Virus record (IMG/VR): IMGVR_UViG_3300032053_000328
Coordinates: 1 to 31,246 of that record
DNA length: 31,246 bases
Strand: one strand, 5' to 3'
Source of the DNA: a virus
A model generated the notes under the pieces. The model saw only the letters and a list, made by a program, of their open reading frames with translations. It searched no databases and had not been told where the DNA came from. Each line of letters begins with the position of its first letter. Within the stretch, counting starts at the first letter, position 1. The position numbers and the translations under genes were made by a program. This document shows positions 1 through 22,833 of this stretch, piece after piece.

Positions 1-3000
1 GGCGAATGAATTCGTCATGGCCGAGTTTTTCATAAGCAGACTGGATTTCTTCAGAAGGGGGCCATGCACCGCCCTCGATCTTCATCCCGGTGATCGGGAC
101 AGGCTCCTCGAACATTGCCTTGGGTTCTTTGCCTAAATCGGGGGTGCGGGAACGATATTCTTCAAACTCTCTTTGAAGCCATTTTGGTAACTTAGAAAGT
201 CCTTCGGAGCCATTAAGTGCTTCATCGGTGAAGGTTCTCATCCGATCCATTTTTAGAATAGCGGATACCTTCTTGTTATTCTCTTTTAATTCATCCCATT
301 TTTTCTCCTCTGTTAAACGGTCAGAAATGGCATTATGTTCATCCGATATTTTATCAACAAATTGACCAACCGCTTCACGAAGAGGTTTTGTAGTAGGTTC
401 TATGCGGGGAGGAAGTGGTTCAACTTCAAACGGAATCTTCGCTATCCTTTCCTGGTGTCTATACTCCATTAATGCTTCAAACTTTGTATCGTATCTTTCA
501 TGGCCCGTCGGCATTCTGTCTTTACGATCAATGGAGGTTGATCTCCATCCACCTTCCGGGTCTTTTGTAATTAAGTAGATGTGATTATCGGTTTGGAAAA
601 TGACTGGTTCGTTGGCCGGGATGGTCTTCTCCCATTCTACGAATGCCTTCTCATACTCTGCGATTTTATTTTCCCCCGCACCTTTGGCCGCAAAGTATTC
701 TTTTTCTGTTGGTCGTTTTGGAGGTTGGAATCCTAACTCCTCGGTAGGTTTTGGGGCGGGTTCGACGGATACCCTTTCGACAGGGGCTTTTTCTGGTTCG
801 GGAATTCCTCCGGGTGGTTTTTCTTGTAGCGTCTCATCAATTCGTTCACCACCGATTCGTTGAACTTCGGGCGGGAATAACCCTTTTTGTTCTGGGGTGA
901 CATATTTTTCCTCGATTGTTCTACGAGCCGCTTCTAAAATGTCAATCTTAGAGGGCGGCTTCTGGGCTCCAAAGAGTCCTTTCTGTTTTGGATTGCCAAC
1001 GTCATCTACCATTTTAGCATAAGCATCGAGGGTGTCAATGATTTTTCTTGGAGTTCGACTCATGTCATTGAACATCTTCATCAGTTCGGTCTCGATGGGG
1101 TTTTTCCCGAAAAGGTTCCCTTGAAGCAAATACTCCTCTACATTCGTTCCTGCATTTCTCAGATCAGAGATAGTGCGTGCCGCATCCGAGATTTCTTTTG
1201 CAATGGAAAGATCGTGGCGATCTCCTCGCCGTATCGCATCCATCAACACGGTTTGTCTGGGAGCCGCTATGAGAAGGGCATTTGTGATATTCTTGATATT
1301 GTTCTCAGGGTCTTCCGTCATCATAGTGATGAGGTCTGAATTCTCTTTACCGTATGCTTTGGCGAAAATCGCATTCTTGATTCTGGTAAGACCTTGAGAG
1401 GAGAGCTTTGCTTCTCCACCAATGCCTTCTCCCTTCTCGGTGATAAATTCTCCCATCTCATTGGCCGGAATCTTACCAAGAAAACTTCGGACGAATTCCC
1501 GATTGGAAGCCGCCAGCAAGTTGCCACTCTCGTCCGGGGCAAACACGGAAAGAACATCTGGTGACAACCGATCCATGTCAATCTTTGCTTTTTCACCTGC
1601 GGACATGACCAGGGTTGTCGGAGTGTTCGCATCTCTCGAAAACTCAACCCGCTCCTCCGGCGTCATCGCCGTAGTATTTTCTCGCACGAGTATCGGGTTT
1701 TTGGCACTTGCAACATCTTCTTTGGTGAGTCCGAACCTTTCCGCATTCTGGGTGAGCCATGCTTTGTATTTCTCGCCATTGGGATGGGCATCCTCGTAGA
1801 GCTTTTTGATTGCGACTGCACGACCATTACCGGATTCGGCCATGTTGTCGGCCCCGACGATGGGAGCCCCGGTATCGGCCCCACGGCTTTCTCCGAGTTG
1901 TTCTGGATCGAGTTTGCTGTAAATCCGCATGATCTGATTCATGGAAGTTACCTTGTCTCGATCCCGTGGTTGTAGTTCTTGATTGTAATTCGGGTTGTCC
2001 CTGAAATTGGTATCAATAGAAGTAATCACATCATTGGCCTCGACAACCTTGAACCGAGTTTGGGCCTTGATGCCCTTTGGCGTGATTACCTCTTCCGGTC
2101 TTCCACCAGCCGCAAGTGGCATGGCTGGTTGACCAGGAGCCGGGGTCGGGGCGGGAGCCGGAGTCGGTGGAACGCCAGAAGGGATGAGGTTGGGAAGTTT
2201 CCCCTTAATGTGTGCATCGATCATCTCTCTGGCGGTATCTCTCGATCCAGCAATCCCGATCTTTCCCTCTCCCTCACGATAGACTTCCCATCCGGCATCC
2301 GTCTTAATATAACCATATCCTTTTTTTGGCTTTGTCAACCCCTCCGGTAATGGAATCGAGGGTTTTTTTGGGACTTTCTCGGTGAAGGTATAAGGGTATA
2401 TCGCACGACCTCCACCGACCTGGGGTTCGATTTCGCCATTGGCATGAAGATAATCAAGAACCTCAGTTCCTTTCCTGGCATTGATCTTATTCCCCATCGC
2501 ATTAGCAACCCGTTGAATCAAAGCAATACCTAAACCTCCGAGATACTTTCCTTCGGTGCGGATGGCATCCATTTGATCCTGTGGCAGAGGAGTCTCGGCT
2601 GGTAAAGGAGGCTTTTCTGCCGGGGGAGGGGTAACGGCAGGGGGGATCGCTTTCTCGCCCGGCGGAAGGGCTCCTGTGACCGTGGGGGCTACTTCTGGGG
2701 GTGCTCCTCTCACTTCCATGACGATTTGATTAAGGACGACAAATTCCCCACTTGCTCGACCGATAATGTCGTATCCGTTGTCTGCGGCCCATTTTGCCCT
2801 TACCTCTGCCATGTCGGAGACCTTCCCGGCCAGACCGCTTCTCTTGATGAGGTCTTTCTCCATGATAACCTTTGCCCCATCCTTGATCCCGATCTCCATG
2901 ACCGTCGGCTTTCCTCCACGGCCTACGGCTTGTTTGCCGTAGGTTTCTGCGAGCGGGCGTGAAGTGGTGAGATAGAAGCCAGGATAATCTTTATTGCTCG

Positions 3001-4825
3001 CAAACCTGGCCTCAATGGGTTCTCCAGCCACAATCTTGTTCGCATTGACATCGGAAGTTCCATGATAAAACGCCCCCGGAGCAGGCATTGAGGGTCTTTC
3101 GGTGGGGAGGACACCGGCGGAGGTAATACCCACTTCGGGGGCAATTCTTCCCTTTCCGGTCTCGACCGTGGCCCCTTTAGGGACGATCTGAGACCGTTTG
3201 TAACTTTTATCTCCAAGGATCGGCCTTCCATCGGTCTCCATTCCGACAACCTCTCGGTAAGAGTCCTGGGCGATCCTGGCATAGACTTTCGGTTGAACCG
3301 GCTCCTTCATCCGAAAACCCTCTCCAGGGGTCGTTCCGGCAGGAGGGGGAAAGAAAGGTAATTGGAGAATAGGTTTTTCGAGATCGGGAAGAAGTAATTG
3401 ACGCAAAGATGAATAACCGTGTTCTCCTCCCGTGAGTAAATAAGGTTTTCCGTCTGGGCCAACGCCATACCATCGGTCGGCCTTATTGACAAGAAGTTGT
3501 GGTTCTTCGGTTCTTCCTCCATAAATCGTCCCACCCGATAACGGGCCAGGAGGAACAGGAAGACCCCCTTCTTCTCGGATTGCCGGAGCATGAAAAGGAC
3601 GGATTGCCGGGACTCTTTCTCTTTGACTCTTTAAGAGCCAGGCCATGTAATCTTCGTCGATAGGGATCGGACGTTTTCCTTGGATATGAAGATCGGCTTC
3701 TCGTTTCCACATTTGGGCGACTTCTGGGTCAATCTTTCCCAAATTCGCAAAAACTCGTGATGCCGCTTTCTCCCTGAACTGAGGATCAACGGTCTCATTT
3801 TTTAAAGAGGCGAAGGTTGCACTCCGATCTTGCCATCTCATCGCTCGTGTTCCGAGACCGAATAAGATCGAAATTCCAATCGAGGGAGCAATGGAATTGT
3901 AAGCGGCCTCTTCCGGTGTTGGGGTTGGAATGCCAGCTTCCTCTGCGGCCCTGGCTTGAAGTGCGGCGGAGGTTGCACCGGCGGCAGTTACGAGAGGAAC
4001 ATTCGTCGCCATGCCAGCGAGACTTTGAGTGAGGGTTGGGGTTAGAAGTTTGCGGATCGTATCGATGGCTGGCTTTTTAATAAACTTGCCTGCGATCCCT
4101 CCGGTTACGGCTTCCGCAGGAGCGAGAAGAGACCATACCCCACCTTCGATTGCACCGATCTTGTTCGAGTAGGATTGAGCTTGCTCTTCCGGCAAACCTT
4201 CGGCCAGGGCCTCTTCGTATGCCCGACCCTTTCCGGCAAGGCCGAATGTTCCAAAAACTCCGACCATCCCGCCGAGAATCGCACCCGCAGTCGGGCCAAG
4301 AAAGCCGGTGACGGGGGCAGTTAAGGCTCCAATGGCGGCTCCGCCCTTTGCGGCGGCCAGAATTGTAGGGAGACTCTCGCCCATTCCGGTTAGAAAACGT
4401 CTAAACCCACCCTGGCCCTCAGCTTCCGAAGGTTGAAGGAATGGAATTTTTTCTGGAAGTTCTTCTGCAAATCCGGTGATGGCCTTTCCAGTTTCTTTCA
4501 TCGGTTCGATCCCAGTCAAGGCTCCCATGCCAGTGATCGCTTGACCAGCGAATTGAGGAATGCCAACCGCTACGCCACGAGCGAGCGAAGAAGCGATGTC
4601 TCCCAGAACTCCACGTTGCGGAGGCGGAGGAGGCGGAGGAGTGGTTTCAAGGCCCCGGATGTGAGAAAGAAAAGGGTCTTCTGCGGTGGGTTCAGGAGCG
4701 GCTGGTCTCATTAAGGGTTTTGCAAAGGCAACCTGCGGAGGTTCCATTGGGGGTAGAGTTGTTCCCCCTATTGTTCCCCTTCCCAGTTCCGATTCACGCA
4801 GATAATCCAAAAACGGATCAGGCAT
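1..4825 (-). CDS. Giant polyvalent protein (partial): ART-like plus DdrB/ParB-like domains
   Basis: Open frame from ATG at 4825 to the left edge: 1608 residues with no stop, so the C-terminus lies outside. The upstream gene stops 3 bases before it and a GGGGGAAG stretch serves as ribosome site. Residues about 150-197 are Gly/Ala-rich and hydrophobic, like membrane-interacting parts of ejected virion proteins. Residues about 580-710 resemble the ART-PolyVal ADP-ribosyltransferase family: H588 in YHGT, Y618 in GFYLT, Y629 in ETYG, E694 in GEFVVLN. Residues about 908-1270 resemble the DdrB-like ParB domain of polyvalent proteins, with a GNGR motif (ESGNGR, 997-1002) and a conserved-looking helical end (DAIRRGD, NLFG). 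Pro-rich linkers separate the domains. Families are recognised by eye; the role, injection with DNA and modification of host targets, is inferred from known polyvalent proteins. Confidence 0.85.
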   Translation of the reverse strand, partial: MPDPFLDYLRESELGRGTIGGTTLPPMEPPQVAFAKPLMRPAAPEPTAEDPFLSHIRGLETTPPPPPPPQRGVLGDIASSLARGVAVGIPQFAGQAITGMGALTGIEPMKETGKAITGFAEELPEKIPFLQPSEAEGQGGFRRFLTGMGESLPTILAAAKGGAAIGALTAPVTGFLGPTAGAILGGMVGVFGTFGLAGKGRAYEEALAEGLPEEQAQSYSNKIGAIEGGVWSLLAPAEAVTGGIAGKFIKKPAIDTIRKLLTPTLTQSLAGMATNVPLVTAAGATSAALQARAAEEAGIPTPTPEEAAYNSIAPSIGISILFGLGTRAMRWQDRSATFASLKNETVDPQFREKAASRVFANLGKIDPEVAQMWKREADLHIQGKRPIPIDEDYMAWLLKSQRERVPAIRPFHAPAIREEGGLPVPPGPLSGGTIYGGRTEEPQLLVNKADRWYGVGPDGKPYLLTGGEHGYSSLRQLLLPDLEKPILQLPFFPPPAGTTPGEGFRMKEPVQPKVYARIAQDSYREVVGMETDGRPILGDKSYKRSQIVPKGATVETGKGRIAPEVGITSAGVLPTERPSMPAPGAFYHGTSDVNANKIVAGEPIEARFASNKDYPGFYLTTSRPLAETYGKQAVGRGGKPTVMEIGIKDGAKVIMEKDLIKRSGLAGKVSDMAEVRAKWAADNGYDIIGRASGEFVVLNQIVMEVRGAPPEVAPTVTGALPPGEKAIPPAVTPPPAEKPPLPAETPLPQDQMDAIRTEGKYLGGLGIALIQRVANAMGNKINARKGTEVLDYLHANGEIEPQVGGGRAIYPYTFTEKVPKKPSIPLPEGLTKPKKGYGYIKTDAGWEVYREGEGKIGIAGSRDTAREMIDAHIKGKLPNLIPSGVPPTPAPAPTPAPGQPAMPLAAGGRPEEVITPKGIKAQTRFKVVEANDVITSIDTNFRDNPNYNQELQPRDRDKVTSMNQIMRIYSKLDPEQLGESRGADTGAPIVGADNMAESGNGRAVAIKKLYEDAHPNGEKYKAWLTQNAERFGLTKEDVASAKNPILVRENTTAMTPEERVEFSRDANTPTTLVMSAGEKAKIDMDRLSPDVLSVFAPDESGNLLAASNREFVRSFLGKIPANEMGEFITEKGEGIGGEAKLSSQGLTRIKNAIFAKAYGKENSDLITMMTEDPENNIKNITNALLIAAPRQTVLMDAIRRGDRHDLSIAKEISDAARTISDLRNAGTNVEEYLLQGNLFGKNPIETELMKMFNDMSRTPRKIIDTLDAYAKMVDDVGNPKQKGLFGAQKPPSKIDILEAARRTIEEKYVTPEQKGLFPPEVQRIGGERIDETLQEKPPGGIPEPEKAPVERVSVEPAPKPTEELGFQPPKRPTEKEYFAAKGAGENKIAEYEKAFVEWEKTIPANEPVIFQTDNHIYLITKDPEGGWRSTSIDRKDRMPTGHERYDTKFEALMEYRHQERIAKIPFEVEPLPPRIEPTTKPLREAVGQFVDKISDEHNAISDRLTEEKKWDELKENNKKVSAILKMDRMRTFTDEALNGSEGLSKLPKWLQREFEEYRSRTPDLGKEPKAMFEEPVPITGMKIEGGAWPPSEEIQSAYEKLGHDEFIR

Positions 4826-6397: not shown

Positions 6398-8320
6398 TTA
6401 TTCTGGCACGGGCATATCGTAGTTATAGTTGTAATTCTCATCCCTGCTACTTTTGTAACCGATGTCTTCTGATGCACTTCCCCTCGCATCGATTCCGGCA
6501 GAGACATGGATTGCGGTCAAGGCTCCGATTGCCAGGGACGAGGCGATCTGGGCCATACCTTTCATGGCCTCGATCTTTAATTGAGTTTCCGCTTCAAGGT
6601 TTTTGATCTCAATCTCTTTGGCCTTGATCTCTAAATTTGCCTTGGCGATCAATGCCTGGATTTTTACATCATAGACCTTAACTTCAAGGTTTGCGAAGGC
6701 GGCGGCTCCATCAATCTGTGCCTTGAATGATTCGACCTCTCCCACATATCCCTTCACGAGAGCGTCGATCCTTGCGGCTTCTCCTTGAATGATAGACTTG
6801 AACCCGTCAACCTCTGCGGCATACTGACCGGCAATAGATTTGTTCACGTCTGCGATGGCCCTAAGTTCGTCGGTCTTCGCTTGAAGTTGTGCGGCTTTTG
6901 CTGTGACCTCTGAACGATAGGCGTCAGCCTGTTTAGAAAAGACTTCGATTTTGGCGGTCTCTCCTTCAATCTTCGCCCGATACAAACTATATTCTGCGGT
7001 CTTCGCATTGATGCCCGCCATGAATCCTTCGATTTGAGCTCGATAGACACCCAAACGGGCGTTTTGAATTTCGACGAAAAGTTTCGCTCCTTCCATTTCC
7101 GCCCGGTAAAGGCCGATCAGAGATTCGACACCAGCGAGTTGGGCCTGATAAATTTTTACACGGGCGTCATTCATATCGACCGTGAGTCTGGCTCCCTCCA
7201 TCTGAGCCTTATAAACCTCGATCTTCCCGATCTCTGCACGGATGATGATCTCATAAACAGACGCACGGGTCTTATAGATGTCGGCGAGAATTTCTACTTT
7301 CTTAACTCCCGCATTGAAGGAAGCGATCATGGCATCTGCCGCCGCCTTGGAAGCCTCAAAGACTCTACGGGCGATAGCATCTGCGATTGTTCCATAAAAA
7401 CCTTGAAGTTGGACTCCCCCGTCAATTCCTTTGTGAACATTGGCCTGGGTTAATTCAAAATTCTTTATTACAAAATCCCGGATGACATCGAGACGTTTAT
7501 TTGAGAAATTCAATTCAGCTTCTTCGATGGCCGCCACAAGGACACCATTTGGAAGAACAGCCCTTCTCCGACTCCACTCTGCGGAGATTCGATCTATGGT
7601 ATCATTCTGGACTTGCCTTGCCGCTTCTATCCCTCGATTTATCATCGCCGTTTCGACTTCTTCCGTGAAGGCAGGTCGATCTCCCCTTATCATCTCTTCA
7701 ATCTTTTCCCTCAATCCTTCAATCACCGTGTATTCGCTTCCACCATCCGTAATCATCGGTTGCGGTGCGATCAGATTTGAAGCATCGGGTGGTTCGGCAT
7801 CGAAGGTCGGAAAAGCTGGATAGGGAACCTCCGGGATCATCGGAAGAATCAGCGAAGGCACATCGGGCAATACATAAATAGGTTTTGGCGGAATCTCCGG
7901 GTCAGTAATCTCAGGAATTCCCGGAACCGGATCGAAAGGGACAATGGGAGGCAAAGTAGGAATATCCAAGTCTGGCGGTTTTGCGGTGAAATCTGGAAAC
8001 GGAACTTCGGGGACATCGGGTAAGGGAAGATAGATAGGAAGAACCGGGGTTGGTGGATAAATAAAATTCCACGGAGGAACGTCGGGTGGTTCTCCTATGA
8101 AATCATCCAAAACAAAGGGGGGGTAATCAATCACCACATCAATGGGAATTGGGGAGATCGCCCCTGCGGTATTCTTTAAATCCGTTAGGGCCTGGTTTGC
8201 CATGCCGAAAGCAGATAGAGCATAACTCTGAGCCAAAGTGAAATTTGCGGTTACAAGGTCTTTAGCACCATAAAGAACATTTTCGATGTCCTCTTTTATA
8301 GTTGGGTTCTCTTCTGACAT
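6398..8320 (-). CDS. Pro-rich plus long coiled-coil virion protein
   Basis: 640 residues; its ATG overlaps the previous stop by one base (TAATG), so it is probably translation-coupled. Three parts are visible: a short helical N-terminus (1-55); a strongly Pro-rich stretch (about 56-190, PPD, PDVP and PxxP patterns) suggesting an extended rod; and a long helical region (about 200-590). The helical region contains repeated VYKAQMEG-like motifs with tyrosines at 370, 391, 405, 426 and 447. The spacings of 21, 14, 21 and 21 are multiples of seven, as in a coiled coil. The C-terminus is polar with NYNYNYD. No catalytic motif is seen. Likely a rod-shaped tail or internal protein; function inferred from architecture and neighbours. 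Confidence 0.7.
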   Translation of the reverse strand: MSEENPTIKEDIENVLYGAKDLVTANFTLAQSYALSAFGMANQALTDLKNTAGAISPIPIDVVIDYPPFVLDDFIGEPPDVPPWNFIYPPTPVLPIYLPLPDVPEVPFPDFTAKPPDLDIPTLPPIVPFDPVPGIPEITDPEIPPKPIYVLPDVPSLILPMIPEVPYPAFPTFDAEPPDASNLIAPQPMITDGGSEYTVIEGLREKIEEMIRGDRPAFTEEVETAMINRGIEAARQVQNDTIDRISAEWSRRRAVLPNGVLVAAIEEAELNFSNKRLDVIRDFVIKNFELTQANVHKGIDGGVQLQGFYGTIADAIARRVFEASKAAADAMIASFNAGVKKVEILADIYKTRASVYEIIIRAEIGKIEVYKAQMEGARLTVDMNDARVKIYQAQLAGVESLIGLYRAEMEGAKLFVEIQNARLGVYRAQIEGFMAGINAKTAEYSLYRAKIEGETAKIEVFSKQADAYRSEVTAKAAQLQAKTDELRAIADVNKSIAGQYAAEVDGFKSIIQGEAARIDALVKGYVGEVESFKAQIDGAAAFANLEVKVYDVKIQALIAKANLEIKAKEIEIKNLEAETQLKIEAMKGMAQIASSLAIGALTAIHVSAGIDARGSASEDIGYKSSRDENYNYNYDMPVPE

Positions 8321-9402
8321 TATCTTTTCCTCCTCGTGACAGCATCGGTTGTGAACCGAAGATTGTTATTATCAAAATCGCTCCCGTCCACATTGCGAAT
8401 TTCAAAAGCGAGAAATCTTTCGTCTATCCCTTTTGGAAGTTTACCACGATATTCGTAGGCCCTACCGGTTGGTTCAAAAATATCATCATAATAATCGTCT
8501 TCTCCGAGTTGAATCACAAACATCATTTGTCCATCTGTCCGGCAGGTGAGCCATGCGTCTCTTGCCTTTTTAACAATGTCTTGATAAGAATCGAGCATGG
8601 GCATCTTCGCCCTGGCGTTGATCTTAGTGCCATTGTCATTATTTCCCCCCAGGGCGAAGATGCCACTTTGACCACCCCCTAAGAATTTCCCATTGAAATA
8701 TGCCAGACTATTAAAATCGCAACCAATATAATCTGTGACGGCGAAATGACTCATGTTCATCGCAATACCTTTGAGATAGCGGGCCGCAAAAAATTGATCG
8801 CCAGTCATCACAAGGTAAGGAACTGGCATCGTTAGAACAAGGTTTCCCCTTGCCTCGATGAATCCTGACATTAAAAGACGTGGAGGTTTTAATTGCAGAG
8901 AAAGCGATCCCACAATTCCGGCGAGGCCGTGCATGGAAAGTCTCGGAGGTCTTAAAGATAAGATCAGGTTTCCGATCTCACTTTCCCTGCCGGTCATCAA
9001 TAAACTTGGAGGACGAAGCGTAAGGACTAAAGCACCGACTTCATTTAGATAGCCGGTCATTTCGAGGGAGGGAACGAAACCTCGAAGTAAAATGTTTCCA
9101 ACTGCTCCGTTAAGACCGGTCATTAATAAGGTCGGAACGGGCATCTTCAATTCGAGACTGCCGCCCTGGAACATCGAGAGGGTCGGCATTGGCATTGTGA
9201 GTCGGAGGTTTCCGATTGCTCCGACGAGGCCGGTCATCAAAAGTTGTGGAACCGGCATCGTTAAAACGAGATTAGCCGTTTCCGTCCAGCCAGTCATTTG
9301 AAGCTCTGGCATCGGCATCGTGAGAGAAAGTTCGTTGTTGATCCTGACCGTGACTTCCATGGAGGTCACGGCAGTAAGAGGAGCCTGAACCTGTGATCCC
9401 AC
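8320..9402 (-). CDS. Beta-repeat tail protein (LTMPxPxLxMTG repeats)
   Basis: 360 residues. The start is GTG at 9402, chosen because GGAGG lies six bases upstream. Residues about 23-200 hold nine units of roughly 17-21 residues, consensus G-N-L-x-L-T-M-P-x-P-x-L-x-M-T-G plus a short variable loop. Middle units change MP to RPP or KPP. The rest (about 200-360) is a non-repetitive mixed alpha/beta domain with YFNGKFLGGG and acidic patches. Repeats of alternating hydrophobic residues followed by Pro and Gly suggest stacked beta strands, as in fibre shafts. A single unit of the same repeat ends the product of 10883-11854. Probably a tail or fibre structural protein; host receptor and assembly partner unknown. 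Confidence 0.75.
   Translation of the reverse strand: MGSQVQAPLTAVTSMEVTVRINNELSLTMPMPELQMTGWTETANLVLTMPVPQLLMTGLVGAIGNLRLTMPMPTLSMFQGGSLELKMPVPTLLMTGLNGAVGNILLRGFVPSLEMTGYLNEVGALVLTLRPPSLLMTGRESEIGNLILSLRPPRLSMHGLAGIVGSLSLQLKPPRLLMSGFIEARGNLVLTMPVPYLVMTGDQFFAARYLKGIAMNMSHFAVTDYIGCDFNSLAYFNGKFLGGGQSGIFALGGNNDNGTKINARAKMPMLDSYQDIVKKARDAWLTCRTDGQMMFVIQLGEDDYYDDIFEPTGRAYEYRGKLPKGIDERFLAFEIRNVDGSDFDNNNLRFTTDAVTRRKR
8803..9334 (-). repeat. Nine-unit coding repeat array (LTMPxPxLxMTG)
   Basis: About nine tandem coding units of roughly 60 bases lie inside the gene at 8320-9402. On the plus strand they show as recurring 'ccggtcat' and 'ggcatcgt' blocks. The DNA has diverged between units while the protein pattern is kept, which points to selection on the protein rather than a recent slippage array. 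One unit lacks the normal loop and another has RGFVP in place of TMPxP. Confidence 0.8.
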
Positions 9403-11854: not shown

Positions 11855-12762
11855 CACATCGCTCCTGGGTGCGGCCTGAGAACACGACTCGAATGTCTCA
11901 GCCGATACTTCTCCTTTTTAGCGAGAACCTTGCTTGCTTCAAATAAAATCCTATGTTTATCTGCGGCTTTGGGGTCATAGCATTCAGCATCTTGTTTCGA
12001 GTAAGCCTCTCTCAGAATTCCATCGATCAATTTCGGGTGATAATCAAAATTGATCTCCGGCGATTCTGTTTCCCAATTTGCAAGGGATAATTGAATAAGC
12101 GGCAACCGAGAGGTAGAGAGCCACAGCGTATCTCTAACTTTCTGAATAATTGCCGCAGAAGGGGTTTCGTCCGTGACAGCTTCGCTCACCGTAAAGGCAT
12201 CTGCGGTGGCCGTGACCACGGTTTTCATTCCTTGATTAGCGGTAGTGCCGGTGATGACCACTTGATTACCGACTGAAAGATAGGTGGAGAAGTTTGCACC
12301 CGCCTTTGTGATGCTCTTATCCGCCGTCGCAAAGGTCATCGGCCCGGAGAAATAGCCGTCCGAATTGAAATAGGGAACAATTCTCAACTTTGCCGCTTCG
12401 TAATCGGGCACGAGATAGCGAGGTTCGCCCACCCGTGTCTCCCATGAAAAGATATTGTCATCGAGCCAGAGTTCATCTTTGATTTCAATATTCGGCCATC
12501 CACTCAGGAGTCTTCCTTTGTGAAGGGCGACAATTCTCGAATCCATGGGAAAGATATATTGATTGGCAAGGAGAGAAATTTTACAGATAGCTTCGGTGGA
12601 GGAATCTCGAAAGCAAAGGGTCTGCCTGCACCATTCGTTCAAAATGAAATTCAGGTGACGAAGCAGTTCTTCGTCTTTCCAAAGTTCATATCCTTTTCCG
12701 TATCCCTTCACGTCATCGAGTTTATCCACCCTCGTCGAAGTGAGGATTTCCTTCGTATTCAT
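11854..12762 (-). CDS. Head-tail adaptor (connector) protein with inserted beta domain
   Basis: 302 residues from ATG 12762, chosen for GGGGG five bases upstream; the ATG at 12774 directly abuts a terminator. Helices at the N-terminus (EELLRHLNFILNEWCRQTL), a middle beta region with YIFPMDSRIVALHKGRLL, and helices at the C-terminus (PKLIDGILREAYSKQDAE, KHRILFEASKV) resemble adaptor proteins that sit under the portal in podovirus-like tails. Residues about 140-200 are a beta insert (SITKAGANFST, VGNQVVITG, AFTVSEAVTDETP) shared in pattern with the gene at 9421-10071. The order coat, small head proteins, adaptor, propeller matches P22/T7-like phages. Function inferred from fold pattern and position. 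Confidence 0.75.
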   Translation of the reverse strand: MNTKEILTSTRVDKLDDVKGYGKGYELWKDEELLRHLNFILNEWCRQTLCFRDSSTEAICKISLLANQYIFPMDSRIVALHKGRLLSGWPNIEIKDELWLDDNIFSWETRVGEPRYLVPDYEAAKLRIVPYFNSDGYFSGPMTFATADKSITKAGANFSTYLSVGNQVVITGTTANQGMKTVVTATADAFTVSEAVTDETPSAAIIQKVRDTLWLSTSRLPLIQLSLANWETESPEINFDYHPKLIDGILREAYSKQDAECYDPKAADKHRILFEASKVLAKKEKYRLRHSSRVLRPHPGAM

Positions 12763-12777
12763 AGTCGCCCCCATTTG

Positions 12778-12801
12778 AAAAAAGGGAGGCCGAAGCCTCC
12801 C
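12778..12801 (-). terminator. Intrinsic terminator with UUCG loop after head gene
   Basis: Read on the minus strand: GGGAGGC, loop TTCG, GCCTCCC, then six T. A perfect 7-bp GC-rich stem with a stable tetraloop and a T run is a textbook rho-independent terminator. It follows the stop of the gene at 12807-13415 and ends only 4-16 bases before the possible adaptor starts, so adaptor and tail genes would be expressed by read-through. Confidence 0.88.
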
Positions 12802-12806
12802 CCTTG

Positions 12807-13415
12807 TTAAGACTGATAGACCACCGTGAGTTTTTTCGAGGCATCGCCAGTCGGAACAAGAACCGTGTTTTCACACAATTCGTCTCCGATGACGACGGTG
12901 GGGGCGTTTACGATTGCCGTGCTGAAACCAACCAACAGAACATCGGTCGTTGCGGAGAGGCGGTCGGGGAGACCGACGACTTCACCGAAACCGATGACGA
13001 TGGTATCCGGGTTCGTGTCCACTATCCATCCAGAACCCACGATGGAAGTGACCTTTGCGAAAGCCTTCAATCCCTCAACGGTCGCTCCGCCATTCGGGAT
13101 GATAACCTCGGTGATGATCTTGCCGTTAATGTCGAAGCCGGTAACGGTGAGAATACCATTGGTATCCTCTAAGGCATCTGTGATCGTTTGCAGGCAGGTC
13201 ACGTTATGAGCAAGTCCGTCTCCTGGAAGACCGGAGTTTGCGATGGTATATGCCTTGTTGCCCATGACGACCGTAGTTACAAACCGGTTCGCCACGATAG
13301 CCGCCGGAACGCCTGCATAAGCCCTTACCATTTTCCGAATCATTCCAGCCACACCTGTTTTAATACCCTTGGTGATGGTGAGTTCACCAATGGTCATCTG
13401 TTCTCGTCTGCCCAT
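12807..13415 (-). CDS. Head-associated structural protein
   Basis: 202 residues; AAAGGAGG before ATG. Mostly beta-rich with Gly, Val, Thr and Ile, including RFVTTVVMGNKAYTIANS, a middle stretch ending ITEVIIPNGGATVEG, and a C-terminal run of strands (TVVIGDELCENTVLVP). No enzyme motif, signal or membrane segment. It lies between the small capsid gene and the adaptor, with hairpins on both sides, so its expression is probably set separately, as expected for abundant decoration or head-completion proteins. I do not recognise the family; a major decoration or tail protein is possible. Confidence 0.7.
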   Translation of the reverse strand: MGRREQMTIGELTITKGIKTGVAGMIRKMVRAYAGVPAAIVANRFVTTVVMGNKAYTIANSGLPGDGLAHNVTCLQTITDALEDTNGILTVTGFDINGKIITEVIIPNGGATVEGLKAFAKVTSIVGSGWIVDTNPDTIVIGFGEVVGLPDRLSATTDVLLVGFSTAIVNAPTVVIGDELCENTVLVPTGDASKKLTVVYQS

Positions 13416-16218: not shown

Positions 16219-17757
16219 TTATTTTATCATCTCTTGAAGATAGACATATCCGTCTTCGGGAAGACCCTCAATGGGTCTTTCTTCGATCCTTTCGTATCCG
16301 TAAGTCGAGGAAGCCGGGACTAAAATTGTTCTCCAAAGTTCGGTCTCCGCAGAGAGAAAAAAAGAAATGATAGAACTTTGAGTAATGGGAATGAAAACAA
16401 GTTCGTAGAGATAGGTCGCCAGGGAATTTAATGAGATGGTAACTTCTCCCAGAAAAGCGAATTCGGCAATATAGGTGGATGCTGGCGAAAGACTAAAAAC
16501 CACATCGCCAACCCAAACAAAACCACCCTCTTGATATTGATAAGCAGAATTCGGGATGAGTTCGAGAGAGACCGCTCCATTGTAAAGGAATGGTGGAATA
16601 TGTTCGTAAGTGGCAAGTGGGATGAATTCGATTAAGACCGCTCCGGCAAAAACATAGTCCGCAAAAAAGGATGATGCCGGAAGGAGGAGAACCAGGATGG
16701 CCCCGGCATAGGCCGGATGATCGTGGGTGTAGATCGCCCCTGGCGTTAAGACACAAAGGATTGCACCACCAAAAGGATAATCGGTAAAAAAAGTCGATCC
16801 AGGAGTTAACGAAAAGGTCATGTCTCCGGCATATTCCCATGAAGAAGAAGCGGAGTATTCATAAGCAGAACCAGGGATCAATTCAAAAAGGATCGCTCCA
16901 TTGTAGGCCCATTCTGGGGAATAGATCGCTCCTGGCGTAAGCGAGAGACCGACCGCACCCGCATACGGCGGATGATCCAGCGTGTAGATCGCTCCCGGAA
17001 CAAGAGAAGAGACAATGGCCCCAGGGTAAAGATAGGCGGCAAAGTAGGTTGATCCGGGAGTAAGAGCGAGGTCTATTGCACCGGCATAATTCCATGATGG
17101 AGGAGGAGGTTTTAGAGCGATATTGATGAGGCCCTTGTCGGATGCGGTAACAAGGGTCATCGAAGAAGCACCATAAGTTCCTGCCGATGCTTTTTCACCT
17201 TTCATCACAACAACACCACCCCCATTGCCATTATTGGTATTGTAGTTAAGGACGGTATAGGCAACGCTGGTTAAATCAGCATTTGCGGGAGTGCCCGTGC
17301 CTTGTGCGGAAGCTGAGTCTGTCTGATCCGAGGTCGCCGCAAGAACGAGACATTCAGCAATCGTGGTCGTTCCACCCGGAACAGAAACCGAAGTATCAGA
17401 AGCCGTTTCGATTGTCCCATTGGTAATATTCCAAGGGTCGCCCGTGGTGATACATCCACGGATGACGATGATCCCGCCGCATTGATGGTTAGTCGTTCCG
17501 CCCTGCGTGGCCGTAGGGCCAGTCTCAGATGCAGAAAGTCTTTTCCAATAGAGATGAAGTATGGTCGCTGTGGAGGATTGCGGACTGCTTGATACCTGTG
17601 TCCATCCTTGGTCAACCGAAATCGTGGCCGCATTTGCGGTTTCGATGAAGAGGAGGCCAATGTCATTAAGAGCATAGGAAACGCCCGTAAAGAGATACTG
17701 GACGTTCCCCGTTCCGTTCCCCTTTGGGCCTACACCTACAATAGTCGGGACTGCCAT
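16219..17757 (-). CDS. Fibre-like repeat protein (YxGxxxLxLxPxSxY repeats)
   Basis: 512 residues; its ATG overlaps the preceding stop by one base (TAATG). Residues 1-220 are a beta-rich domain of the kind at the start of some phage fibre proteins (GGIIVIRGCITTG, TTTIAECLVLAATSD, GGGVVVMKGEKA). From Y224 to about 450 there are some nine units of 20-27 residues with pattern Y-x-G-A-h-x-L-x-L-x-P-x-S-x-Y, for example YAGAIDLALTPGSTYF and YNGAVSLELIPNSAY. The tail contains SSTYGYER and a charged end. The same repeat fills the product of 18581-19909 on the far side of the Cys-cluster/glycosyltransferase gene. Probably a surface fibre or adhesin; ligand unknown. Confidence 0.72.
   Translation of the reverse strand: MAVPTIVGVGPKGNGTGNVQYLFTGVSYALNDIGLLFIETANAATISVDQGWTQVSSSPQSSTATILHLYWKRLSASETGPTATQGGTTNHQCGGIIVIRGCITTGDPWNITNGTIETASDTSVSVPGGTTTIAECLVLAATSDQTDSASAQGTGTPANADLTSVAYTVLNYNTNNGNGGGVVVMKGEKASAGTYGASSMTLVTASDKGLINIALKPPPPSWNYAGAIDLALTPGSTYFAAYLYPGAIVSSLVPGAIYTLDHPPYAGAVGLSLTPGAIYSPEWAYNGAILFELIPGSAYEYSASSSWEYAGDMTFSLTPGSTFFTDYPFGGAILCVLTPGAIYTHDHPAYAGAILVLLLPASSFFADYVFAGAVLIEFIPLATYEHIPPFLYNGAVSLELIPNSAYQYQEGGFVWVGDVVFSLSPASTYIAEFAFLGEVTISLNSLATYLYELVFIPITQSSIISFFLSAETELWRTILVPASSTYGYERIEERPIEGLPEDGYVYLQEMIK
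16400..17088 (-). repeat. Coding repeat array (YxGxxxLxLxPxSxY), copy A
   Basis: About nine diverged units of roughly 60-80 bases inside the gene at 16219-17757. Each encodes an aromatic-x-Gly turn, an alternating hydrophobic strand, Pro, and a Ser/Ala/Tyr strand. The units are clearly related in protein and only loosely in DNA. Confidence 0.75.
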
Positions 17758-18584
17758 TATATCCCCCTATGCTTGATGTCTAAGAGCCACCAAGCCTCGA
17801 TAGTTTTATAAGAATTCATTTTGATCTTTGAATTCCAATACCATCCGTCGGTAGTTGTCTCTTCTGGTGCATCCTCGAAAGAATTCTCTTCGATGATCTT
17901 TCTTGAAAATAGAGTGCATCCAAAACCAGACATCCATTCATTTGGAATTTGGTGATCTCCCCTAACCGGATAATCGTGAGAAATCCAGTCCATCTTCATT
18001 CCCCTATCAAGACTCATTAACAGTTTCAATGTTTCGGGAGGAACGATCACGTCGGCTTCGAGGTTAAACCATCGGTCGCAATCGGAACGAAGAAACCAAT
18101 TTCTTATAAACTCCATTCCGGCGGCGATCTTTCCGTTCGGGCCTTTACCTCTTCCGTCGATTCTTGCCCATCTCAATCGACCTTGCCAGCGATCAAAAAA
18201 TTCTGGCGTCTCCGAAGTGTCCACCATGAAGAGTTCTTTGGCTGGCCAATCCAGGGCTTCATACGCCCGGAGATATTCCTCGAAACAATATTCTTTCCCT
18301 TCATAAGTCGGGCAGGCGACCATAATCTTTTCGACTTCCACAAAATAATAACCGCACTTATTGAAGATTGAAGGATGCGTCATCGCCTGCGGAGATTCAG
18401 GCATTGTGATACATCCCAATAGATTTGCTGGCGATGTTCCTTGAAGAGAAGGATCGTCTCTCCTATCATGGATGGTGCAGGTTGCAATCTCACCATCGAA
18501 GATCAGATGGGGACATGGATCACGGAAACCCGTGCAACACATCCCACATCTTACGCATTGGCCATACCTGATATATTCTTTCAT
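17757..18584 (-). CDS. Cys-cluster (YkgJ-like) domain fused to a glycosyltransferase
   Basis: 275 residues; ATGA overlap with the gene upstream and TAATG with the gene downstream. Residues 1-45 have a YkgJ-like metal-binding cysteine cluster: C10, C13, C16, C17, C24 and C36 in CVRCGMCC, PCPHL and CTIHDRR, with further Cys at about 58 and 77. From about residue 84 it changes to a GT-A type glycosyltransferase pattern: strand IMVACPTYEGKEYC, ELFMVDTSET, an EADV motif (WFNLEADVIVPPETL) where the metal/nucleotide-sugar DxD usually sits, then WISHDYPVRG and GFGCTLFSRKII. It lacks a signal peptide, so it should act in the cytoplasm. Flanked by two proteins with the same beta repeat, it may glycosylate a fibre or modify a host glycan; that role is inference. 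Confidence 0.75.
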   Translation of the reverse strand: MKEYIRYGQCVRCGMCCTGFRDPCPHLIFDGEIATCTIHDRRDDPSLQGTSPANLLGCITMPESPQAMTHPSIFNKCGYYFVEVEKIMVACPTYEGKEYCFEEYLRAYEALDWPAKELFMVDTSETPEFFDRWQGRLRWARIDGRGKGPNGKIAAGMEFIRNWFLRSDCDRWFNLEADVIVPPETLKLLMSLDRGMKMDWISHDYPVRGDHQIPNEWMSGFGCTLFSRKIIEENSFEDAPEETTTDGWYWNSKIKMNSYKTIEAWWLLDIKHRGI

Positions 18585-19909
18585 TTCACTCTCTCCTCCG
18601 TCTCAATATAGATAACCGTTTCCGGTGGGATCGGCGGCGTTTTGGTTTCGATTGTCGGATAAGGATAAACCCCCTGGGTAACGGCTGGCATCGGTGAATC
18701 TATTTGTTCAAATAAAAATGACTCAATCGGCTCTTGAGCATCCAGGTTCGAGAGGATCAAGAAGAGACCAACAAGTCCAAGATAGACATAATTCGCATAG
18801 CTGATCTCTCCGGGAAAGAGAGAGATTTTGATCTGGCCAAGACAATAAAATTCTTGAATTAGAATGTAGGAAGATTGAGGGAAAAGAGAAATAAGGACAG
18901 ACCCTTCATAGGTGAAATAAAATTCAGTTTCGGAAGAGAGAATGAGGGATAAACCGATCATTCCCTGATAGGGTGGGAAATCCAAATAAGAAATCGAAGA
19001 AACTAAAAGACCGATCTGGACGGAGGAGGAATAGGGATAGTCTGCAAAGAACAAAGAATTTGGAGAAATAGAAAGGCCGATATTCCCTTGATAGACTTGA
19101 ACCACAATGGAGGAATAAGAAGAATTTGGGAAAAGGTTTAATGTTAAATCGCCCATCACGTTCCATTCAATCGAATGAATAGCACTCAAAGTGAAAACGA
19201 TGGACAAGGAAGAGGGATAAAAATAATCGACGTGATAGGTTCCTTGCGGCGAAAGGGCAAAGAGAACATTTCCCAAATAGGGATAAACTGCAAAAAAAGT
19301 GCTCTGCGGCGAGAGATTTAAACCAACCGATCCTTGATAGACGAAATGTGAAGAATAGGAAGAGTTTGGATTGAGATTGAGAAGAACATTGCCATTATAG
19401 AAGATCGCATACTCATACGAAGAATTTGGGATCAGGGCCTCCAAAACGCTCGCCTGATAATACCATTCCTCATAATAGATGGCGTTAGGACTCAGGGAAA
19501 GAGAGATGTTTCCCTGGTATTCAAAATTTAGGGGTGGAGAATACTGATAATTAGAATCCGGTTGAAGTTCTATGACGACCGTTCCAACATATTTATCGAG
19601 AGGGAGATTTCCTTTTGAGTCCCAGATACCAGATTCATCGACGGTCGCATACGGAGCCTTATGAGAACCAAATTCGGTTATCCCAACCTGGCCGCCAAAA
19701 ATAAATTGTCCTCTTTCGTTTAAGAAGTGAAAACGATAAATGGATGTGGGATTCAAAGAGAGTATGACATTGCCGGTATATTCTGGCCCGGAAGGGCCTT
19801 GGTATCCACTTCCAAAGGACGTGAGTGTAACGGTAATATTTCCGCTATAAACGAAAGGCGAAGGTAAACATTGGACAACGGCAATAAGCCAACTTGAGTT
19901 TATAGACAT
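18581..19909 (-). CDS. Fibre-like repeat protein (YxGNhxLxLxPxSxY repeats)
   Basis: 442 residues, ATG overlapping the previous stop by one base. Nearly the whole chain (about 20-385) consists of diverged units of roughly 20-28 residues: Y-x-G-N-h-x-L-x-L-x-P-x-S-x-Y, such as YTGNVILSLNPTSIY, YQGNISLSLSPNAIY, YNGNVLLNLNPNSSY and YQGSVGLNLSPQSTF. It is rich in Tyr, Ser, Asn and Leu with very few charges, as in fibre shafts. A Pro-rich, acidic C-terminus (TIETKTPPIPPETVIYI) follows. One longer break (about 60-105) holds FGGQVGITEFGSHKAP. It pairs with the gene at 16219-17757. The many Ser/Thr/Tyr/Asn residues would be possible targets of the embedded glycosyltransferase, though nothing proves this. 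Confidence 0.7.
   Translation of the reverse strand: MSINSSWLIAVVQCLPSPFVYSGNITVTLTSFGSGYQGPSGPEYTGNVILSLNPTSIYRFHFLNERGQFIFGGQVGITEFGSHKAPYATVDESGIWDSKGNLPLDKYVGTVVIELQPDSNYQYSPPLNFEYQGNISLSLSPNAIYYEEWYYQASVLEALIPNSSYEYAIFYNGNVLLNLNPNSSYSSHFVYQGSVGLNLSPQSTFFAVYPYLGNVLFALSPQGTYHVDYFYPSSLSIVFTLSAIHSIEWNVMGDLTLNLFPNSSYSSIVVQVYQGNIGLSISPNSLFFADYPYSSSVQIGLLVSSISYLDFPPYQGMIGLSLILSSETEFYFTYEGSVLISLFPQSSYILIQEFYCLGQIKISLFPGEISYANYVYLGLVGLFLILSNLDAQEPIESFLFEQIDSPMPAVTQGVYPYPTIETKTPPIPPETVIYIETEERVK
18770..19860 (-). repeat. Coding repeat array (YxGNxxLxLxPxSxY), copy B
   Basis: More than ten diverged units inside the gene at 18581-19909. On the plus strand they appear as purine-rich 'gaagaatt[t/c]gg' and 'ccttgataga' blocks recurring every 60-80 bases. 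The pattern is the one seen in copy A at 16400-17088. Confidence 0.72.
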
Positions 19910-21051
19910 TAAAGTGCCACCACATTTGGAGCAAGGAGAATCGCACTTGTTGGCATATTTGCGGTGATGTCGCCGCTTCTCTGGTGTCTTGCTCCTGTAA
20001 CGGTTGAACCAGAAATATCTATCGGTGTTCCATTCGGGTCTTTGACTAATTTAGTGCTCGAAGCCGCCTGCGATCCATAATGGGAATGATAGTATGCGAG
20101 AGCGATGGCGACCCATTCTGCCGATGTTGGATCAAAATAGTCATCGTAATCCGTCAACCCTGTTGCCCCTGCGGAAGGATAAATCATATTATAGCGTTCC
20201 TCAAACCTACCTACCGTTGTGGGAGGCGTTATTGATCCTGATCCAATATTGAATTGCCATAAGGTTCCTAAAATATAAACCGGATACTTTGAGTTTGAAG
20301 TTCTGGCTATGGCTTTATAATGGTATCCGTCGAGTGGAGTGAAACCGACTCCAAATCCACTTCCCGAATAAGATGTATTTGTCCAGGGGCCTCCATACCA
20401 AATCGTGCCGCCTGCAAAATTATAATTCCCATCATCTTGTTGAACTCCCAACCAAAAACTTCCCTTATCACTTGAAATATATGCCGCCACTTGCAAACTG
20501 CCCCAATAAGCGCCGTAGCTTGGCCCATCCCAATTTGCGGAAACAAAATCGCAATAGACCTGACCGGGAAGGTCAACCCAAACCGTATCTTGTATCCCCG
20601 TAGAGGATTTTCCAAAACAATTAAATCCAGGATGGACAACGGTGACAAAGGCATTCGTTCCACTTTGGGAAATACGAATTTTTCTTGCTATTAAAACTTG
20701 AAGTTGGCCCGCACTCGTGGTTTGAGCAAGCCTGATATGGTCAATATCATTGTAGGTGGTAGAGGAACTTCGGATTCTTGTAAAAAGAGTTGTCCCGGAA
20801 GGAACACTGACCGTGACTCGAACCGTCCCTGCGGCATTTAAGAACTCAACGGCCCTGGCCGCACTATCTGTATTCTTTGCGACAACCTCACCATACCAAA
20901 CATCCGTCCATGAAGAGCCAAAAAAAGTATAACTCGGAACCCACGGGGGCATTCTATCGAACGGCATATAGAGTCCCGTGCTTAAACTTTGCTCCAAGGC
21001 TGTGTTTAATAAAATTTCACCCCGAAATTTTCTTTGTGGATAATTGGCCAT
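19909..21051 (-). CDS. Fibre- or adhesin-like protein
   Basis: 380 residues from ATG 21051, which shares one base with the previous stop (TAATG) and has GAGG about ten bases upstream; a TTG nine codons earlier is less likely. It is beta-rich with many Gly, Ser, Thr, Tyr and Trp. An N-terminal part (about 60-140) has short strands (VVAKNTDSAARAVEFLNA, RVTVSVPSGTTLF). A middle beta-sandwich-like region (about 155-280) has VWVDLPGQVYCDF, GGTIWYGGPWTN and YHYKAIARTS, similar in feel to carbohydrate-binding or lectin-like domains. The C-terminus has HYGSQAASSTK and hydrophobic ILLAPNVVAL. No catalytic motif is certain. Likely a host-binding fibre part; inferred from composition and context. Confidence 0.65.
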   Translation of the reverse strand: MANYPQRKFRGEILLNTALEQSLSTGLYMPFDRMPPWVPSYTFFGSSWTDVWYGEVVAKNTDSAARAVEFLNAAGTVRVTVSVPSGTTLFTRIRSSSTTYNDIDHIRLAQTTSAGQLQVLIARKIRISQSGTNAFVTVVHPGFNCFGKSSTGIQDTVWVDLPGQVYCDFVSANWDGPSYGAYWGSLQVAAYISSDKGSFWLGVQQDDGNYNFAGGTIWYGGPWTNTSYSGSGFGVGFTPLDGYHYKAIARTSNSKYPVYILGTLWQFNIGSGSITPPTTVGRFEERYNMIYPSAGATGLTDYDDYFDPTSAEWVAIALAYYHSHYGSQAASSTKLVKDPNGTPIDISGSTVTGARHQRSGDITANMPTSAILLAPNVVAL

Positions 21052-21644
21052 TAGGCTAACCTCACTTGAGTATGACAACCCAGAGAACTTCCCTGGGCCA
21101 TCGAAGAAGGAGCCGGATCGGGAAGGGCTCCATAAGAATAACCTGTTTTGACAAGACCAGGATATTCATCTGCTTCTGCATTTAAGTATCCAGACCCTCC
21201 GTAACTCCGCATCCACGGTTGAAGACTCCGGCTATTGCCAAGAAAAGCAGTCCAGTAAATTTGTGGCCCCGATAAAATCAATGGCGGATTGAAAGAAGTC
21301 TCCTTGAGGCCGGTCGTGCTACAATCCATCTCTCCTCCATCCACGATAAGTCTATCGGGATAATGGAGTTGTGTTAGTGATCCCGATCTTTTCCCAAGAT
21401 AGATACCGCATCGGGCAAGACCGCCGCCAATGGCTGTGCAGTTATAGAAGGCAAGGCGATCAATACAAACTGTTTCGGGAAACCACATCGGCCAGAACTG
21501 AAAACAACCATCATAGTGTTCTCCCCAATAAACCGGGTCTTCTGGTCGTGCTCTTGGCGTGGCACACCCGCTTGTCCAGTTACCTTTTCTTCTGAATTTA
21601 AAAATATCCAAATATCCTGAACTTTGAATTGGGATTACTCTCAT
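21051..21644 (-). CDS. Paralogue 3 of a tandem beta-sandwich family
   Basis: 197 residues; ATGA overlap with the gene upstream. It shares a motif order with the two genes before it: a strand with a Gly-x-Tyr turn (ARCGIYLGKRSG), a DGGEMDCSTTGLKET segment, IYWTAFLGNSR, and a C-terminal GYSYGALPDPAPSSM block. The N-terminal part is Trp/Tyr-rich and differs among copies, as expected if it gives binding specificity. The motif order resembles a common phage virion domain made of Ile/Val/Leu strands around 'xGxYxDxGxxYPxxL'. Probably a tail or head-fibre subunit; the ligand is unknown. Confidence 0.65.
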   Translation of the reverse strand: MRVIPIQSSGYLDIFKFRRKGNWTSGCATPRARPEDPVYWGEHYDGCFQFWPMWFPETVCIDRLAFYNCTAIGGGLARCGIYLGKRSGSLTQLHYPDRLIVDGGEMDCSTTGLKETSFNPPLILSGPQIYWTAFLGNSRSLQPWMRSYGGSGYLNAEADEYPGLVKTGYSYGALPDPAPSSMAQGSSLGCHTQVRLA

Positions 21645-22255
21645 ACTCCTAACACCAAAGCATCATCCGTATTGTTAAAGACAGCATCCGAAGGAAAAGG
21701 ATTCGGAAGTGCCGCATAGGTATAGGTCTTTTTGTATCCCATCTGGATCGTGTTTCCGTCCGATGGTCGATACCCCAATACTGGTGGGCCATGAACGAAT
21801 CCCGTTCCATAAAAACCACCCGCAGAAGGTGTATTTCTCACATGAGCCGTCCAATAGAGCTTTGTTGGACTTGGGATGAACCCGCCCGTGATCGTGGCCA
21901 TGAGCCATCCCCACCCATATTCATTCCATTCTGGATCAGTCCAATTTAAGGCCCTCCCTACTTCAAAGCAAAGTTTTCCCGGAAACTTATTGCCGTTGTC
22001 TTCATAAACGCCCATGCGAATCAATCCGTTCACTAACGTCATTACTGGCCACTCATAGAAATAACTTCCCATAGAACCGAATTTGAAAGTCCGATGGAAA
22101 AAGATAGGATAAGCCCGAAGTTCATCCGCAACATCAATCCCTATTCTTGTCGATCCCTGTCCCGCCGTCCTACTCATTGCTCCAACTCTCAACGTCCCGG
22201 TTTTGCACGCCATCCAAATACTAAAAGGGCTTGGGGTTCCTCTGCTCAATCTCAT
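21641..22255 (-). CDS. Paralogue 2 of a tandem beta-sandwich family
   Basis: 204 residues, joined to its neighbours by ATGA overlaps on both sides. Motifs shared with the flanking genes: IRMGVYEDNGNKFPGKLCF, a strand LYWTAHVRNTPS, and the ending TYAALPNPFPSDAVF. Here the segment between them contains NEYGWGWLMATITGG instead of the DLSSTGVKEL-like element of the other copies, so this copy has diverged most in the middle. No enzyme residues are evident. The role is inferred to match its paralogues: a structural or host-binding subunit. Confidence 0.65.
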   Translation of the reverse strand: MRLSRGTPSPFSIWMACKTGTLRVGAMSRTAGQGSTRIGIDVADELRAYPIFFHRTFKFGSMGSYFYEWPVMTLVNGLIRMGVYEDNGNKFPGKLCFEVGRALNWTDPEWNEYGWGWLMATITGGFIPSPTKLYWTAHVRNTPSAGGFYGTGFVHGPPVLGYRPSDGNTIQMGYKKTYTYAALPNPFPSDAVFNNTDDALVLGV

Positions 22256-22833
22256 ACTTTCCTCAAAATAATGTGCGGGGCCGTATAAAGATTAGAGGCC
22301 CCGGCAGGAAATGGATTGGGTAAACTTCCATAGACTTGAGATTTATACCATCCCGTTTGCCAGGTTGATTGAGTAAAAGATGAAAATCCCATGATGGGGC
22401 AGGCGGCATCGTTTGAAGAAAGGAATACTCTTATGGTTGCGGTTGCGGAGGCGAGATAAGCCAGCCAATGAATTCTATTTTCTGGAAGGACGAGGGGAGA
22501 AGAAATCGTAAGTTCTTTGACGCCGGTTGATGAAAGGTCGATTTCCCCGGCATCCAATACGAGATTTGCGGGATAGAGATTCCCGTCATCTACATAAACT
22601 CCAAGCCGGGCATTCCCCGTGATCGCTCCCGTAACCTCGATTGCGATCCTGTTAAATGTCCTTTTTTGACCTTTCCAAAAAAAACAAGAATAGAGATTAT
22701 TGAGGATGAGAGAGGATGTTCCTAATGTGCCGACGCCAGCGAGACCTTCCCATATTGGGCTTTCATAAAAATCTGCAAGCTCATGTTGTTTGAAATGATG
22801 AGTCACCGTGCCCCGATAAATCCTGCCTCTCAT
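22252..22833 (-). CDS. Paralogue 1 of a tandem beta-sandwich family
   Basis: 193 residues, ATGA overlaps at both ends. It is the most canonical copy: NRIAIEVTGAITG, ARLGVYVDDGNLYPANLV, AGEIDLSSTGVKELTISS, RIHWLAYLASATATIR and YGSLPNPFPAG. This order of strand motifs is known from many phage virion proteins and fits a small beta-sandwich. The next two genes carry the same sequence of motifs, so the three arose by duplication. A basic, variable N-terminus precedes the domain. Likely a fibre or decoration subunit; not enzymatic as far as can be seen. Confidence 0.68.
   Translation of the reverse strand: MRGRIYRGTVTHHFKQHELADFYESPIWEGLAGVGTLGTSSLILNNLYSCFFWKGQKRTFNRIAIEVTGAITGNARLGVYVDDGNLYPANLVLDAGEIDLSSTGVKELTISSPLVLPENRIHWLAYLASATATIRVFLSSNDAACPIMGFSSFTQSTWQTGWYKSQVYGSLPNPFPAGASNLYTAPHIILRKV

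Follow-up and report, generated by a model that had tools for sequence, protein, structure and literature searches.

The minus-strand gene at 17757..18584 of a 31,246-nucleotide virus record (IMG/VR IMGVR_UViG_3300032053_000328, positions 1 to 31,246; this whole stretch is referred to here as the window) encodes a protein in which a cysteine module related to the YkgJ family is joined to a glycosyltransferase (GT) domain of the GT-A type. Its best reading is as a fibre-modifying glycosyltransferase: we predict, with a probability of about 0.55, a two-module enzyme that modifies the fibre-type appendages of the phage itself. A dedicated modification system had been proposed in the original prediction, and it is partly supported, as the most economical account of the fusion, its coupling to genes on both sides and its recurrence in relatives. 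The component parts, Cys module and GT domain, are of known kinds; in the literature searched we found no description of the fusion, of the exchange of its N-terminal slot or of the family of small, coupled cysteine proteins described below.

The fused gene and its cassette

The window is a 31-kb virus record with genes for terminase, portal and major head protein on the minus strand, and its portal is distantly related (~25–29%) to those of HMO-2011-, Roseobacter- and Rhizobium-type phages. Compared with the related record L003, which has the 127-bp terminal repeat expected of a closed (circular) genome, the backbone is mostly 90–100% identical at the protein level, with a few small genes at 58–77%, whereas the fused gene lies in a cassette that is far more divergent. 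The features of this region are as follows.

16578..21057 (.): divergent cassette; amino acid identity to L003 only 31–78%
19909..21051 (-): 380-aa protein with an N-terminal ‘IRQEINI’ beta-sandwich domain, which adjoins the GT gene in relatives
18581..19909 (-): 442-aa beta-repeat protein, probable fibre; repeat type YxGNIxLSLxPNSxY
18581..18584 (-): ATGA overlap, 4 nt, between the upstream 442-aa repeat gene and the fused gene
17757..18584 (-): fused gene, 275 aa, YkgJ-like Cys module plus GT-A glycosyltransferase domain
18333..18584 (-): N-terminal Cys module, residues 1–84, eight cysteines
18534..18557 (-): CVRCGMCC motif, residues 10–17, the first four cysteines, matching CxxCGxCC of PF03692
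17760..18332 (-): GT-A domain, residues 85–275, from AlphaFold2, Foldseek and relatives
18051..18059 (-): E176-A-D178, DxD-type motif; E176 and D178 each kept in at least 90% of 19 rows
17847..17849 (-): D246, kept in at least 90% of the rows and, by analogy with GT2 enzymes, a candidate for the catalytic base
17769..17771 (-): H272, a histidine near the C terminus conserved to the same degree and, by analogy with GT-A enzymes, a candidate for a metal ligand
17757..17757 (-): TAATG overlap, 1 nt, between the fused gene and the downstream 512-aa repeat gene
16219..17757 (-): 512-aa beta-repeat protein, probable fibre; repeat type YxGAIxLSLxPGSxY

The fused open reading frame has an ATG start with a GGAG-type Shine-Dalgarno sequence upstream. 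Its coupling on both sides to proteins sharing one beta repeat, claimed from the first inspection of the DNA, is confirmed by the 4-nt and 1-nt overlaps and by the repeat ‘Y-x-G-x-I-x-L-S-L-x-P-x-S-x-Y’ common to the 442- and 512-aa neighbours (blastp: 30% over 282 aa, E 3e-21). Both neighbours are rich in serine and threonine and contain only 1.4% lysine. Neither matched any family model in the libraries searched, known fibre families included, and for this reason the label ‘fibre’ is drawn from their repeat, position and variability; in that sense the placement of the fused gene inside a fibre-type cassette also holds.

The order of genes within the cassette is not constant. An 822-aa fibre-type open reading frame in L003 corresponds to two window genes (380–389 aa and 442 aa); the fused gene precedes the 822-aa gene in L003 and follows the 442-aa gene in the window, so a fixed gene order was rejected as a requirement. 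The fused gene is thus found on opposite sides of the fibre gene in the two phages, and the cassette linkage therefore survives rearrangement. At the window junction at 19909 (19909–21078 / 18581–19909) the single frame of L003 is represented by two overlapping frames, which may reflect true splitting of the gene, a frameshift or a restart coupled to the first frame.

Just before the divergent cassette, positions 21051–22833 hold three tandem paralogues of 193–204 aa, ~26–30% identical and with overlapping ends. A second short repeat, LTMPxPxLxMTG, occupies the first half of a virion-type protein at 8320–9402 and occurs once more at the end of the 10883–11857 gene product. The incomplete frame at 2–4825 (-), ~1600 codons long, runs off the window and is homologous to a 2497-aa protein of the circular record G001, from which it diverges towards the middle and end.

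Three further phage contigs, whose sample numbers differ, carry the same fusion: L003, L005 and L036, at 54, 36 and 34% identity respectively; L002 is a near-identical copy and was therefore not counted as independent. The recurrence of the fusion, in a set that includes one circular contig, means that it is not an artefact of assembly, a concern attached to the original prediction. Searches by tblastn with Cys-GT, methyltransferase-GT (MT-GT, see below) and stand-alone Cys proteins gave no full-length relative in 50,697 cultured phage records, nor did L005 in plasmids, and the one relative from a scan of 84,980 species genomes was L004, from a Woesearchaeota bin, whose GT lacks the Cys module.

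The two modules

By sequence, the fused protein has no useful match in Pfam, PHROG, NCBIfam or the PDB, and because no Pfam, PHROG or NCBIfam model recognises it the GT assignment rests on structure and relatives. In an AlphaFold2 model built with 19 relatives, block means of pLDDT in the GT domain are 89–97 for residues 91–200 and 220–270, and 72–80 for residues 201–220. Foldseek with this model returns 524 PDB matches at E ≤ 1e-3, headed by the glycosyltransferase 6p61, WrtF, TarP and RmlT, as well as many viral GTs. The GT fold is thus found, and the proposed joining of a CxxCGxCC cluster to a GT-A-like enzyme stands, both for the window protein and for its fused relatives. The likeness to the four named GT2-type enzymes extends to the GT-A fold over ~200 residues and a DxD-type motif, although identity to the window GT domain is 12–17%, and to our knowledge none of the four carries such a Cys module. 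Residues D122, E176, D178, D246 and H272 are each at least 90% conserved in 19 aligned rows, and these acids and the histidine are as expected of a working GT2-type enzyme in which they would play the roles suggested above. The window protein gave no match to Glycos_transf_2 (PF00535) in the Pfam search (cut-off 23.3 bits), but the archaeal relative L004 exceeds the cut-offs for both Anp1 and PF00535 (30.9 vs 23.3 bits) and the MT-GT protein L019 scores 23.6 bits for PF00535. Taking model and relatives together, the enzyme very probably attaches sugars.

The N-terminal module has cysteines at residues 10, 13, 16, 17, 24, 36, 58 and 77. Their order is that of the YkgJ/CxxCxxCC family (PF03692, UPF0153): CxxCGxCC, CxxL, CxI[YH]xxR, a Cys before P and a last Cys. 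The second-half pattern of that family, CxxL ... CxI[YH] ... R ... C ... C, is represented by CPHL, CTIH, C58 and C77; in L003 it reads CVIYDSRPPACKEFP, and the first motif of L005, CNNCGACE, lacks the last cysteine. When five phage N-domains were aligned by hhalign with 25 archaeal PF03692 proteins the score was 46.4 (E 3e-8), compared with at most 23.6 in 40 column shuffles, and a profile-profile comparison of the stand-alone Cys set described below with PF03692 gave E 1.2e-11. Taken one by one, 13 of the 34 phage proteins in this family reach PF03692 with E ≤ 0.1, the lowest value being 1.7e-5. The window protein gives no Pfam match at the curated PF03692 cut-off, and L003 and L006 score 8.4 and 14 bits against a cut-off of 23. 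The phage module differs from the family in its fusion to a GT and in the near absence of the loop between CC and CxxL. This loop has ~40 aa in the archaeal members compared, against 6 residues for the window protein and from 1 to 8 for its fused relatives. Given the missing ~40-aa loop and the score under the Pfam cut-off, we regard it as a short-loop YkgJ/CxxCxxCC relative rather than a clean member. AlphaFold2 models this probably metal-binding module poorly (pLDDT 40–55).

The YkgJ family is widespread, with matches above cut-off in 9 of 14 control genomes, and almost no function has been described for it in the open literature searched, where FliB was the only characterised protein with a comparable motif. 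FliB is a SAM-requiring flagellin lysine methyltransferase with a CX4CX3CC [4Fe-4S] site, and its authors compare this Cys-rich N-terminal site with PF03692 (PMC8598068). FliB and the phage protein have a Cys-rich site in common, and FliB modifies a surface filament protein. The phage spacing is however CX2CX2CC, the module of ~85 aa has no methyltransferase part, and the neighbouring repeat proteins are poor in lysine. The E. coli ykgJ gene (L068:3854–4183) is found just past ecpE, a gene for a fimbrial chaperone that is read in the same direction; alongside FliB and flagellin this is possibly a second case of a YkgJ-type gene associated with a surface filament, or maybe a coincidence. The circular relative of the window phage (L106 ~12690–13000 = G001:52690–53000) additionally encodes, at a distance from its structural genes, a YkgJ-like protein with the full loop, MPTKSELCIRCGDCCKFF...CPHL...CEIYGSHPTVCKKF.

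The N-terminal slot and stand-alone cysteine genes

Relatives were collected by a scan with the GT domain, and 13 distinct close genes were kept, that of the window included. The slot before the GT domain is occupied by a SAM methyltransferase in eight of them (L018, L019, L020, L026, L027, L029, L033 and L035), by the Cys module in four and by nothing in one; L016 has the GT domain without the Cys module. The methyltransferase of these MT-GT fusions is of class I; the three that were scanned match Methyltransf_11 at E 1e-12 or better. In the GT tree the Cys-GT and MT-GT types are intermixed, and constraining either type to one clade is rejected (p-AU 3e-67 for Cys-GT and 0.005 for MT-GT). As the tree rejects a single Cys-GT origin, the N-terminal slot must have been swapped, and this GT domain has two interchangeable N-terminal partners, the Cys module and the methyltransferase, a point absent from the original prediction.

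In 11 of the 13 cases the GT gene is followed by a gene whose product begins with an ‘IRQEINI’ beta-sandwich fibre-type domain, at a distance of -8 to +2 nt in ten cases and of 109 nt in the remaining one. The MT-GT set thus shares with the Cys-GT set both the GT domain and the adjoining fibre-type gene, and differs in having a class I SAM methyltransferase in place of the Cys module. The fused gene of the window does not directly adjoin its ‘IRQEINI’ gene. The structure prediction for the ‘IRQEINI’ protein is of low confidence (58), gives only weak matches to beta-sandwich and lectin-like structures, and was not relied on as evidence.

Most often the module forms a small phage protein of its own, whose gene is coupled to the one downstream; this too the original prediction had not included. 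In L006 it is a 77-aa protein whose gene ends in a TAATG overlap with a 508-aa gene. A scan of viral contigs for the pattern GxCNRCGxCC gave 78 stretches (L108–L185), with 34 non-redundant stand-alone genes besides L003 that encode 68–164 aa (for example L110:7061–7318, L116:2099–2368, L161:2856–3104 and L148:8689–8955); the search pattern guarantees the first motif in this set but, save for a loose C[GST][YFL] filter, neither the later cysteines nor the CGY-type end. The fused and stand-alone modules form one family (hhalign E 1.5e-23), and this small CxxCGxCC family is essentially absent from PHROGs. Where the next gene is on the same strand, 26 of 30 stand-alone Cys genes are coupled to it (gap -12 to +5 nt), compared with 34% of 113 control gene pairs in the same stretches (Fisher p 2e-7), a contrast that is only indicative because the control genes were modelled crudely and include false open reading frames. 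The following genes are mostly unrecognised, rich in S, T, N, G and Q and often long; they include two weak Ig-like matches, one GDP-mannose dehydratase and some head-tail connector/adaptor families, and tail-fibre families are among the genes upstream. The stand-alone neighbourhoods fetched contained nothing that clearly matches this GT or the ‘IRQEINI’ domain, from which it follows that the module has a function independent of the GT. In L125 (4812–6073) the stand-alone gene overlaps the gene for GDP-mannose 4,6-dehydratase, a second link of the module to sugar chemistry, and in L166 (7074–7930) two Cys-cluster genes are found in tandem with a 10-nt overlap.

What the enzyme may act on

In the reading that we favour, the GT domain would transfer a sugar from a host-made nucleotide sugar onto freshly made repeat proteins, with Ser, Thr, Tyr or Asn of these S/T-rich, lysine-poor proteins as the likely acceptors. 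The circular L003 genome contains no other PF00535 GT and would therefore rely on the nucleotide sugars of the host. Sugar genes near relatives such as L005 and L020, named below, are also in keeping with this reading. The Cys module would bind metal, as an Fe-S cluster of the FliB kind or as zinc, and may either dock the enzyme on the fibre being made or add a second, metal-dependent step equivalent to that of the methyltransferase that replaces it. The exchange of the slot with a methyltransferase and the FliB precedent make the second-step option worth testing; a straight copy of FliB is spoken against by the small size of the module and the scarcity of lysine residues among the repeat proteins. 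With a lysine content of 1.4%, these proteins are also unlikely to carry lysine methylation as their main modification. Decoration might alter the adsorption, stability or masking of the fibres.

Phage-encoded GTs that decorate a phage’s own structural proteins have established precedents: PMC12363180 cites Che8 gp110, Corndog gp38 and Myrna as cases in which mycobacteriophage virions are glycosylated. These are other phages with capsid and tail-tube acceptors, likened to the present case by function. The linkage of GT gene to structural genes that marks virion-glycosylation systems is found here in the two-sided overlap and in 11 of 13 relatives. A broader scheme, which we put forward only tentatively, is that small metal- or Fe-S-binding phage proteins act on the adjoining appendage protein, by FliB-like chemistry or in maturation, and have been fused to a GT in several lineages where the slot is otherwise taken by a SAM methyltransferase, giving a two-step, modular fibre decoration.

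The original prediction had left room for modification of the host surface. The enzyme might act on O-antigen, capsule or teichoic acid, for example to block superinfection, and be carried in the cassette since receptor-related genes are exchanged together. The best PDB fold matches do include surface-polysaccharide enzymes (WrtF, TarP and RmlT), divergence of the genome is concentrated in the cassette, and several sugar genes (DegT aminotransferase, nucleotidyl (NTP) transferase and further GTs) are found near L005 and in the L020 record. We nevertheless consider this unlikely: matches to the GT-A fold cannot tell acceptors apart, the ATGA/TAATG coupling ties the gene to structural genes, and 11 of 13 relatives are linked to one fibre-type domain. 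Typical seroconversion systems have membrane segments, and none is evident in the sequence of the fused protein.

Somewhat less probable again is that the Cys module is the working part, serving the adjoining structural protein as an Fe-S or zinc chaperone or as a maturation factor, with the GT as an accessory or for tuning. The common GT-less copies, of one family with the fused module and coupled to the next gene, would fit this idea, but the catalytic-type residues of the GT domain are conserved, and the domain is also found free of the module in L016 and joined to a methyltransferase in other relatives. Action of the GT on phage DNA or another small acceptor, its position being incidental, we think very improbable. 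Phage GTs that modify DNA exist and are reportedly the subject of a 2024 paper, but no thymidylate-synthase-type base-modifying gene (PF00303) was found in the five records searched, circular G001 included, and the gene sits in a late structural operon beside fibre-type genes. An assembly chimera or chance cysteine cluster, which might be suspected of a protein seen in metagenome contigs only and unmatched in cultured phages, is refuted by the same fusion at 34–54% identity in three other contigs and by a profile match far above shuffles.

Returning to fibre modification by the fused enzyme, the stand-alone copies just ahead of structural and often fibre-like genes in numerous other uncultured phages, together with the fusion and its exchanged slot, point to a means of chemical fibre decoration that has not been described before. 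The choice of host depends on the fibres of a phage, and their post-translational modification is hardly known. A phage relative of YkgJ fused to a GT, exchangeable with a methyltransferase and encoded beside fibre-type genes, offers a small, testable system both for the modification of fibres and for the function of the YkgJ family.
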